Assembly (NCBI GenBank): GCA_002779825.1
Contig: PEVN01000328.1
Span: 1-33,907, forward strand
DNA length: 33,907 nucleotides
Origin: Armatimonadetes bacterium CG06_land_8_20_14_3_00_66_21
Lineage (GTDB): Bacteria; Armatimonadota; Abditibacteriia; CG2-30-66-41
Reading direction: 5' to 3'
Each line of letters opens with the position of its first letter. Within the stretch, counting starts at the first letter, position 1. This document shows, one piece after another, positions 19,366 to 22,271 of this stretch. The notes beneath the pieces are model-generated. The model was given only the letters and a program-made list of their open reading frames with translations, was not told the origin of the DNA and searched no databases. Made by a program: the position numbers and the translations under genes.

Positions 19366-20109
19366 TCAGCCAAGCTCTTCAATGATGTCCCGCAGCCGAG
19401 CGGCTTCCTCGTATCGCTCGGCGCGCACTGCATTGCGGAGCTGGATGTCCAGCCGGTCCCGCTCGCTAAGCGGCGCTCCCGACTCGATCTGCTTCCGCAG
19501 CTCTTGCAGGAAGTGGAACTCAGGCGTTCGGGTGGCAAGCTCGGGGCGCCCGTACTTGGCCAGGAGCTTCCGGAGAGCGCCTTCGCCCTCTTCCACATGC
19601 CGCAGTGCGGGGATCGGCCCGCGCTCATGCAGAACACGCATTGCCCGCGCCTGAGTCAGGTGGCTGATCACGTACGCCCGATGCTGCTCGGAGGAGACCC
19701 AATCCTGGCGGTCTTCCGCGTACTCCTCCAGCAGGTCGATGATGCGGAGGTTGTGTTCGGCGTCGCTTTCGGCCTGCTGGAACTCGCCGATCTGCAGGCA
19801 GCAGAGCCGGCGGTGGAAGTAGAGCATCGACTCATGGTGCAACGCGCCGCAGTCGCCGCTGTCCAGGGAGAACTCCTCGTCGCTGAAGCGGTGCCGCTCC
19901 AGGGCATCTTCGAAGAGTTCGAGCAGAGAGTCGTACCCATAGGGGCGTTGGCCGTCGGGGCGCCCGGTCAGCTCCATCTGCAAAATGCCCATCTCCAGGC
20001 GCATCTGGATTTTGGGCGTTCCGTCGGCGCCGACGATCTTGCGGGCTGTCACCCGCTCGTCTTCGTTGTAGGGCCAGGCATCGAGAGAGGGTCTGAGGTC
20101 CTTGCTCAT
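19366..20109 (-). CDS. UVR (UvrB/UvrC) motif-containing protein
   Basis: The C-terminus DRLDIQLRNAVRAERYEEAARLRDIIEELG is a canonical UVR motif; upstream helical region with FHRRLCCLQIGEFQQAESDAEHNLRIIDLLEEYAED. Confidence 0.8.
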   Translation of the reverse strand: MSKDLRPSLDAWPYNEDERVTARKIVGADGTPKIQMRLEMGILQMELTGRPDGQRPYGYDSLLELFEDALERHRFSDEEFSLDSGDCGALHHESMLYFHRRLCCLQIGEFQQAESDAEHNLRIIDLLEEYAEDRQDWVSSEQHRAYVISHLTQARAMRVLHERGPIPALRHVEEGEGALRKLLAKYGRPELATRTPEFHFLQELRKQIESGAPLSERDRLDIQLRNAVRAERYEEAARLRDIIEELG

Positions 20110-20161
20110 GAGGTACACCGCGAGTCGGCAGGTTCGCCGGTCTCTGTTGATCACCTACATT

Positions 20162-20620
20162 CTACGCAAGGGAGAGCCCCGTCGCCAACTCGCGCGCCGA
20201 CTGCGAGCGGCGGAAGCGGTGCAGCGCCACTCGCTCGGCGTCGGTCTTCGCCTCCCGCGTGAACAGCTCCTTCTCCAGCGCGGACCGCAGGGTCTCCTGC
20301 AGCGTGCCCAGCCAGGCCCGGGAGAGCACCTCTTCGTAGTGCTGTGCCGCATCGGGCAATGCCTCGAGGGGGTCGGCTCGCCCCTCCGCGTCCGCCTTCT
20401 GGCCGTCCAGCGGCTTGGGCTCGTAGCTCTCGTGGGCCAGGAAGTTGCGGATTCGGTTGGCGGAGGACTTCAGGAGATACGCCTCGTCCTGGATCCCGGT
20501 CTGCAGCAGCTCCCAGACCCGCAGGCGGCCCTCCGAGTAGGCGTCTTCGACCAAAGACGGGGAGAATCGGCAGAGCCGTTGTGCCTGGCGGCGGACGTAC
20601 GGGGAGAGTTCGATGAGCAT
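20162..20620 (-). CDS. sigma-70 region-2-like protein, putative small sigma factor-like regulator
   Basis: MLIELSPYVRRQAQRLCRFSPSLVEDAYSEGRLRVWELLQTGIQDEAYLLKSSANRIRNFLAHES...; good RBS (aggaggctggtcATG) on the minus strand. Confidence 0.55.
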   Translation of the reverse strand: MLIELSPYVRRQAQRLCRFSPSLVEDAYSEGRLRVWELLQTGIQDEAYLLKSSANRIRNFLAHESYEPKPLDGQKADAEGRADPLEALPDAAQHYEEVLSRAWLGTLQETLRSALEKELFTREAKTDAERVALHRFRRSQSARELATGLSLA

Positions 20621-20792: not shown

Positions 20793-20817
20793 ACGCCTCC
20801 GCGGGCGGCGGAGGCGT
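20793..20817 (-). terminator. intrinsic-terminator-like hairpin downstream of the SAM-riboswitch candidate
   Basis: Minus strand ACGCCTCCG-CCGCCCG-CGGAGGCGT (9-bp perfect stem) followed by TTGTCGTTC. Confidence 0.55.
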
Positions 20818-20850
20818 CCAAACAACGCATTCGCTCATCCTCGCGGAGAT

Positions 20851-20943
20851 CCGTCTCGTGGGTGTAGCACCTTTCCGGAGCGTTGGCTCCGGGAGGTTGC
20901 CGTGCACCTCGCCACGCCGATTAGTACACTCGCGATGAGACCT
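20851..20943 (-). promoter_or_regulatory. SAM-I/SAM-IV clan riboswitch candidate
   Basis: Minus-strand RNA GGUCUCAUCGCGAGUGUACUAAUCGGCGUGGCGAGGUGCACGGCAACCUCCCGGAGCCAACGCUCCGGAAAGGUGCUACACCCACGAGACGG: conserved GGCAACC...AAGGUGCUA core, P1 GUCUC/GAGAC, P2 GUGUAC/GUGCAC, P3 CCGGAGC/GCUCCGG. Confidence 0.75.
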
Positions 20944-21089
20944 AAGCGCCGGTTCATTACCGACACGCACAGTGTACCATCGCGCCGACGGCTCGTCAAG
21001 CGGCCGAGGCGCCGTGTTGACGGGTGCGCTCGGCACTCCTACAATGGCGACAGAGCTTGCCAGACCCCGCAGACTGGACCACCGCACCT

Positions 21090-22271
21090 ATGCACACGCC
21101 CCCCAACCTCCACACGATGGCGATCCACGCGGGCCAGGAACCGGAACCTGGCACCGGCGCCACGGCGACCCCGATCTACCAGACAGCATCCTTCGCCTTC
21201 CGCGACGCAAAGCACGCCGAGGACGCCTTCGCAGACGGCCGGGACCAGTACGTCTACACCCGCTGGGGCAACCCGACAACAGCGGCCTTCGAGCAGAAAC
21301 TCGCCGCGCTGGAAGGGGCCGAAGCAGCGCTGGCCACGGCCTCCGGCATGGCAGCCGTGTCCACCGCTGTTCTCTCCCAGGTCAAGCACGGCGATCACGC
21401 CATCTGCGCCCGAAATGTCTACTCCGCGTCGTTCACGCTGTTCTACCGCCGGCTCCCGACCATGGGCGTGGAGGTCTCGCTGGTGGACGGCACCGACGCG
21501 GCGGCGTTCGCTGCCGCCGTGCGCCCCAACACGAGACTGATCTACGCGGAGACACCGGGCAACCCAACGCTCCAGCTAACGGATCTGACCGCAGTCGGCG
21601 AGTTGGCGCACCGGGCGGGCGCGGTGCTGCTGGTGGACAACACCTTCGCCACACCGCTCAACCAGCGGCCGTTGGCCTTCGGCGCGACTGCCGTCCTCCA
21701 CAGCACGACCAAGTACCTGGGGGGGCATGGCGACTTGATCGGCGGGGCCATTGCCGGTTCGCACGCGTTTGTCGACTCGCTGTGGTCAACGCAGATCGAA
21801 CTGGGCGGCACGCCGAGCCCGTTCAACGCATTCCTGGGCTTGCGGGGCATGCAGACGTTCCCGCTCCGCATGGAGCGGCACAACCGCAACGCCCAATTGG
21901 TCGCGGAGGCTCTGGAGGCTACCCCCGAAGTTGCGTGGGTGGCCTACCCGGGACTGCCGAGCCACCCCCAGCACGAACTCGCTGCTCGACAGATGACGGG
22001 GTTCGGCGGGATGGTCTGTTTCGAACTCGCCGGCGGTCTGGACGCCGGCCGCAAACTGATCGACGGCGTCCAGCTCTGCACCCGGGCTGTCAGCCTCGGC
22101 GACGTGAAGACGCTGCTCTGCCATCCCGCTTCCTCGACCCATTTCCACGTTCCGGAGTCGGCCCGCCGGGAAGCCGGCATCACGGACGGTCTCGTGCGGC
22201 TGTCTGTCGGCCTGGAAGACCCGGAGGACATTCTCGCCGACCTTCGGCAAGCGCTGTTACGCAGGCGGTGA
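21090..22271 (+). CDS. Cys/Met metabolism PLP-dependent enzyme (cystathionine gamma-synthase / methionine gamma-lyase / O-acylhomoserine sulfhydrylase-like)
   Basis: TMAIHAGQEPEPGTGATATPIYQTASF...YTRWGNPTTAAFEQKLAALEGAEAALATASGMAA...ETPGNPTLQLTDL...VDNTFATPLNQRPLAFGATAVLHSTTKYLGGHGD...HPASSTH; PLP-Lys motif STTKYLGGH. Confidence 0.92.
   Translation: MHTPPNLHTMAIHAGQEPEPGTGATATPIYQTASFAFRDAKHAEDAFADGRDQYVYTRWGNPTTAAFEQKLAALEGAEAALATASGMAAVSTAVLSQVKHGDHAICARNVYSASFTLFYRRLPTMGVEVSLVDGTDAAAFAAAVRPNTRLIYAETPGNPTLQLTDLTAVGELAHRAGAVLLVDNTFATPLNQRPLAFGATAVLHSTTKYLGGHGDLIGGAIAGSHAFVDSLWSTQIELGGTPSPFNAFLGLRGMQTFPLRMERHNRNAQLVAEALEATPEVAWVAYPGLPSHPQHELAARQMTGFGGMVCFELAGGLDAGRKLIDGVQLCTRAVSLGDVKTLLCHPASSTHFHVPESARREAGITDGLVRLSVGLEDPEDILADLRQALLRRR

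Follow-up and report, generated by a model that had tools for sequence, protein, structure and literature searches.

A tandem SAM-I-like leader as a candidate control element of a small sigma-70-region-2 protein in Armatimonadota

The usual targets of SAM riboswitches are methionine and SAM genes, which they regulate directly. Several of their classes are built on a common SAM-binding core and are told apart by the elements around it. SAM-I riboswitches have a P4 helix, a first pseudoknot and a kink-turn, SAM-IV riboswitches are without P4, and SAM-I/IV riboswitches have an undivided P2 and are without the first pseudoknot (PMC6890682). Multiple aptamers in one leader have also been described: 164 double SAM-I riboswitches were reported as likely pseudo-cooperative, and bi-mechanism tandems of SAM-II and SAM-V riboswitches, which act at two levels, are known (PMC9481103).

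We analyzed a stretch of 33,907 nucleotides (hereafter the window) from Armatimonadetes bacterium CG06_land_8_20_14_3_00_66_21. At the sequence level, its minus strand holds two SAM-I-like aptamers in series (RS1 and RS2), preceded by a promoter, separated by a terminator-like hairpin, and followed by a Shine-Dalgarno sequence that overlaps RS2 and by a gene for a small sigma-70-region-2 protein, and this layout is conserved together with the gene in three genomes. We consider this to be probably a tandem two-level SAM-responsive leader that controls the sigma-like protein, with SAM repressing both its transcription and its translation. As in the reported SAM-I doubles, two SAM-I-type aptamers stand before one gene; here, however, the first seems to act on transcription and the second on translation, and no sigma-factor target is mentioned in that report (PMC9481103). 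The SAM-II/SAM-V tandems combine two distinct aptamer classes (PMC9481103), whereas both aptamers here are of SAM-I type and the target is not an enzyme. Arrangements of this kind are already known, as tandem SAM-I and as two-level SAM tandems; no report turned up of this target or this combination. A precedent for a SAM riboswitch on a sigma gene was not found in the literature searched (weak evidence, as most subscription papers lay outside its scope), nor were two SAM-I-type aptamers working at two levels on a sigma-type target.

RS1 (20941-20832, minus strand) matched the SAM-I family (S-box, RF00162) at 27.9 bits over the full length of the model. The E-value was 2.9e-4 when 401 nt were compared with all 4227 Rfam families and 1.4e-3 in an RF00162 search of the whole 8.3 Mb genome, where RS1 was the sole match under E 0.1. 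Reciprocally, a covariance model made from RS1 alone (model R1) had as its best match, among 13 riboswitch-bearing loci, a SAM-I riboswitch (L008) in a genome of the same class (30.9 bits, E = 1.6e-5); across 292 genomes of the phylum it returned one extra match only (L086), which was without Rfam support. These results bear out the initial annotation, in which a SAM-clan riboswitch had been placed on this strand. That annotation had tied its proposal to a covariance-model hit above threshold: by E-value RF00162 does match, at a score below the Rfam gathering score of 44.4 bits, as is also true of RS2 (17.8 bits), and no family reached its gathering score when the whole window was compared with Rfam.

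In an alignment with 31 SAM-I riboswitches of the same phylum, P1 of RS1 is formed by CUCAUC (20939-20934) and GAUGAG (20839-20834) and equals the P1 of a relative (L009; CTCTCATC...GATGAGAG). J1/2 (GCGAG) follows directly after the 5' strand of P1 and contains the expected GAG, and P2a pairs GUGUACU (20929-20923) with GGUGCAC (20908-20902). The P3 core is exactly the standard one, GGCAACC (20901-20895) with AAGGUGC (20873-20867), L2 (CGUGG) is complementary to J3/4 (CCACG, 20861-20857) and would form a pseudoknot, and a short P4 (GAGA CGGA UCUC, 20857-20846) is located between P3 and P1. The fold lies near the free-energy minimum with SAM-I topology, and the P1-P4 four-way junction is seen in both the covariance-model alignment and the fold. 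RS1 thus resembles SAM-I riboswitches in P1-P4 topology, core, pseudoknot, terminator platform and expected OFF logic, and differs from them in its score and in P2, where P2b (UCG/CGA) is split from P2a by nothing more than an AA bulge, at a place where the 31 aligned sequences show a kink-turn-type GAGGGA...GA or close variants. A kink-turn is absent from P2 in this alignment, as the initial annotation had already suspected. Because P4 and the L2-J3/4 pseudoknot, features of the class (PMC6890682), are present, RS1 is by its sequence a SAM-I-like aptamer minus the kink-turn and a putative SAM binder.

From the same missing kink-turn, the initial annotation had concluded that the RNA might be a SAM-IV or SAM-I/IV variant, closed by a P1 of GUCUC/GAGAC. 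SAM-IV does share the L2-J3/4 pseudoknot, its turn differs from the kink-turn of SAM-I, and in the sequence of RS1 the CAAC of the P3 loop is complementary to a GUUG further downstream, with which it could form a second pseudoknot. This assignment nevertheless strikes us as extremely improbable, and it was dropped on model matches, P1 and P4. RF00162 is the top match of its clan at RS1, and a genome search with RF01725 (SAM-I/IV) stayed empty at E<=1. The alternative P1 breaks P2, folds worse (-42.1 versus -44.7 kcal/mol) and gives a J1/2 of 7 nt, its GAGAC being mostly the 5' arm of P4. SAM-IV has P5 and a second pseudoknot and is without the P4 that RS1 carries between P3 and P1, and SAM-I/IV is without the first pseudoknot, L2-J3/4, that is present in RS1 (PMC6890682).

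The leader has a sigma-70-type promoter (20999-20971, minus strand), with TTGACG (20999-20994) and TACACT (20976-20971) separated by 17 nt. Three promoter-like sites were found in the region against 0.2 expected in shuffles, and none of them lies in the interval from the terminator to the start of the ORF (ATG 20620). Downstream of RS1, an intrinsic-terminator-like hairpin (20817-20793, minus strand) pairs ACGCCUCCGC with GCGGAGGCGU around a CGCCC loop and is followed by the tail UUGUCGUUCU; the hairpin of the initial annotation is thus present, with 10 bp rather than 9. A consensus terminator scan called no terminator at 20817-20793 because the U tail is weak. The 3' arm of P4 together with J4/1 (CUCCGCG, 20848-20842) may act as an antiterminator by pairing with CGCGGAG (20803-20797; minus strand), an alternative fold that had been proposed at the outset and that is predicted at -80.5 kcal/mol, compared with -79.6 kcal/mol for P1 plus terminator. 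Such near-equal computed energies (a gap of 0.9 kcal/mol) are as expected for a switch. Judging from SAM-I biology, SAM would favor the terminator, switching the gene OFF.

Directly before the gene, between the terminator hairpin and ATG 20620, lies RS2 (20780-20628, minus strand), which the initial annotation had missed; the GGCAACC core, P2, the hairpin, CUCCGCG/CGCGGAG and the ORF that it listed are all present in the letters, at the positions it gave. RS2 aligned end to end with RF00162 (E = 0.11; 4227 families, 186 nt), and an unconstrained fold of the region produced P1, P2, P3 and P4 around a junction. P1 pairs CCUAUG (20778-20773) with CAUAGG (20635-20630), J1/2 (ACGAG) keeps the GAG, L2 (UGGGC, 20727-20723) is complementary to J3/4 (GCCCA, 20668-20664), and P4 is found at about 20662-20649. 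RS2 departs from SAM-I riboswitches in an extra hairpin (20752-20738) inserted in P2 (GCAGGAG/CUCCUGC, with a P2b of GGG/CCC and an asymmetric loop) and in an altered P3 core (CGCAAAC...CAGUGCG versus the standard GGCAACC/AAGGUGC). The Shine-Dalgarno sequence of the sigma-like gene (AGGAGG, 20632-20627, minus strand) has its 5' half inside the 3' strand of P1. In the predicted fold without SAM, P1 of RS2 is not part of the free-energy minimum of leader plus gene start (-70.3 versus -74.9 kcal/mol).

The ORF starting at ATG 20620 (20620-20162, minus strand) encodes 152 amino acids, and coding-type codon composition begins near its start. Residues 6-62 matched Pfam Sigma70_r2 (PF04542) at 18.2 bits, below the cut-off of 24, and both of its close homologues exceeded that cut-off (28.8 and 33.5 bits), in agreement with the sigma-70-region-2-like assignment in the initial annotation. 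The region 2 match is shared with ECF-type sigma factors, from which the window protein differs in being short (about 150 aa), in having no detected region 4 and in belonging to a small subfamily of its own. Region 4 (Sigma70_r4), which binds the promoter -35 element, had no match in any of the three members, and a single-sequence AlphaFold model of the protein had a pLDDT of 55, too low for fold comparison. No homologues of the gene were found in 40 relatives, in the class or on contigs of the same genome; the two close ones came from a search of the whole phylum, in 292 genomes (G249, 45% identity, E = 2e-25; G273, 38% identity, E = 3e-23). A profile of the three proteins recovered exactly these three members (E<=6e-71), the next matches (E>=5e-6) looking like other sigma-type ORFs, and the three genomes represent three different families. 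The protein would act in transcription, plausibly on methionine and SAM genes.

Both homologues are preceded by the same order of elements as the window gene: promoter, SAM aptamer, terminator(s), a second aptamer with P1 over the Shine-Dalgarno sequence, and the sigma-like gene. The leader in G273 (L088) has a TTGACA-16-TATAAT promoter, aptamer 1 (RF00162, 27.2 bits), a terminator and aptamer 2 (27.0 bits), whose P1 (CCUAUC/GAUAGG) lies over GATAGGAGG. That in G249 (L087) has TTGATC-17-TATACT, aptamer 1 (model R1, 21.8 bits, E = 5e-4), two terminators, about 730 nt and then aptamer 2. The latter was picked by eye, with P1 (CCUUAUC/GAUAAGG) over AAGGAG (GATAAGGAG) and an ordinary core (CAACC...CGGUGG), and its match in Rfam was a weak one to SAM-I/IV (RF01725, 17.1 bits). 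Between the two aptamers of L087 (2100-2800) is a tandem array of five copies, with units of about 110-130 nt that each form a long hairpin (ACCACAGAGACACCGAGA.../...TCTCGGTGTCTCCGTGGT); across this spacing of about 730 nt, array included, linkage of the aptamers in one transcript is uncertain. Overlap of the second-aptamer P1 with the Shine-Dalgarno sequence was seen in all three leaders. All seven elements compared, L008 and the six aptamers of the three leaders, show L2-J3/4 complementarity of 4-7 bp by differing sequences, and in a permutation test with loop and junction segments chosen by eye, the true pairing was the one out of 5040 to reach the observed sum. No convincing aptamer came out of a descriptor scan at 17 loci whose sigma-like genes are more distant. 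The initial annotation had called the gene an unusual apparent target and had suggested looking for the same leader before its orthologues; the target stands, and because this tandem leader is also found before both of the gene's close homologues, the only ones in the phylum genomes, it is, as far as sequence conservation can tell, no accident of context.

These comparisons also bear on the role of RS2. It could be a decayed duplicate or a mere structured leader, leaving RS1 as the working SAM switch and termination as the sole means of control, and the lower score of RS2, the hairpin inserted in P2, the altered P3 loop and a P1 that falls outside the minimum-energy fold without ligand agree with this. 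Yet the same CAG loop occurs in aptamer 2 of the distant L088, differing sequences preserve P1-P4 and the pseudoknot, and P1 covers the Shine-Dalgarno sequence in 3/3 leaders, so that we regard control by RS1 alone as unlikely. The pocket-side change shared by the two second aptamers (CAG for AAGG in the P3 loop) may reflect a different ligand or weak binding. A reading in which RS1 senses SAM and RS2 a related compound, such as S-adenosylhomocysteine, draws on the recurrence of this change in two distant genera, which looks like selection over decay. It seems quite improbable to us: the core of aptamer 2 in L087 is the ordinary one, and the residues that we take to be the SAM contacts (GAG in J1/2, CAA, UG) are retained. 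We infer that RS1 and RS2 both bind SAM.

Under the preferred reading of a two-level leader, transcription would start at the promoter at 20999-20971. With plentiful SAM, P1 of RS1 would be stabilized, the terminator at 20817-20793 would form and the transcript would end. Transcripts that escape would carry RS2, in which P1 can pair over the 5' half of AGGAGG, and SAM bound to RS2 would keep the ORF at 20620 from being translated. Under SAM scarcity, both aptamers would be open and the sigma-like protein would be made. Counting against the tandem reading are aptamer scores that all fall below the gathering score, the lack of a kink-turn in RS1, the altered P3 loop of RS2 in the window and of aptamer 2 in L088, a P1 of RS2 outside the free-energy minimum without SAM, the weak U tract of the window terminator, the long spacing between the aptamers in G249, pseudoknot segments picked by eye and a sigma-like protein without detectable region 4.

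On the opposite strand, a Cys/Met metabolism PLP-dependent enzyme gene (21090-22271, plus strand; PF01053, E = 1.6e-137) lies behind a promoter of its own (TTGACG-17-TACAAT, 21017-21045, plus strand), back to back with that of the leader. The enzyme is of the methionine gamma-lyase/O-succinylhomoserine sulfhydrylase type, its best NCBIfam models all scoring below their cut-offs. In G273, the sigma-like gene is followed by NDK and then by an AdoMet synthetase (PF01941 family). Both neighborhoods, the SAM synthetase in G273 and the divergent PLP enzyme in the window, fit a role in SAM and methionine metabolism. In another reading, the leader would be a remnant from the control of a methionine gene (the PLP gene having been inverted) or a trans-acting terminated RNA, with the sigma-like gene a bystander. 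A classical SAM-I riboswitch and terminator stand directly before a homologous PLP enzyme gene in three other genera of the phylum (L011, L012 and L013 in G007, G034 and G021); here that gene is divergent. We judge this highly improbable, as both sigma-like homologues have tandem aptamers, aptamer 2 overlaps the Shine-Dalgarno sequence of the sigma-like gene itself, and the PLP gene has a promoter of its own. Downstream of the sigma-like gene on the minus strand is a gene for a UVR-motif protein (19366-20154), homologues of which occur in MAGs of Gemmatimonadota, Latescibacterota and Planctomycetes and as a second copy in the same genome. It was considered as a conserved partner and rejected, its homologues elsewhere being without a sigma-like neighbor and its own promoter-like site (20188-20159) overlapping the end of the sigma-like ORF.

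SAM-I riboswitches above the cut-off were detected in 54 of the 292 phylum genomes, and at the loci examined they mostly precede SAM synthetase genes and also PLP-enzyme genes. An RF00162 search of the three genomes with the sigma-like gene revealed no other convincing SAM-I riboswitch, a search that at genome scale also missed the two aptamers of G273 and so may have passed over further divergent copies; the window genome assembly is fragmented (578 contigs) with 6.6% contamination. It is conceivable, if rather doubtful at present, that a SAM-controlled sigma-type regulator replaces distributed SAM riboswitches in these bacteria, being made at low SAM and turning on methionine and SAM genes. 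The genomic pattern allows for such a replacement of direct riboswitch control by a sigma-type protein and does not show it. Both SAM-I and SAM-I/IV are present in the phylum, the latter above the RF01725 gathering score in G017, a genome of another family (L015:1499-1595, 52.6 bits; L019:1499-1611, 55.6 bits). The SAM-I riboswitch of G006, in the class of the window genome (L008:299-412, 62.4 bits, on a contig of 1767 bases), precedes two ORFs without a significant Pfam or PHROGs match, and not the sigma-like gene; a Shine-Dalgarno sequence (AGGGAGG) is contained there in a downstream hairpin that resembles the riboswitch P1 in sequence.

The leaders described here offer natural aptamers of SAM-I type in which P4 and the pseudoknot are present and the kink-turn is missing, a core change, seen more than once in second aptamers, by which ligand choice can be tested, and, as three orthologous leaders, a direct experimental handle. 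For the biology of these organisms, the recurrence of this arrangement before both relatives of the gene found in 292 genomes of the phylum suggests that a bacterium can couple a transcription regulator to the level of SAM, in place of a direct coupling of methionine enzymes. If true, SAM would serve as a wider transcription signal by way of one regulator, and the locus would be an example of the rewiring of a riboswitch regulon.
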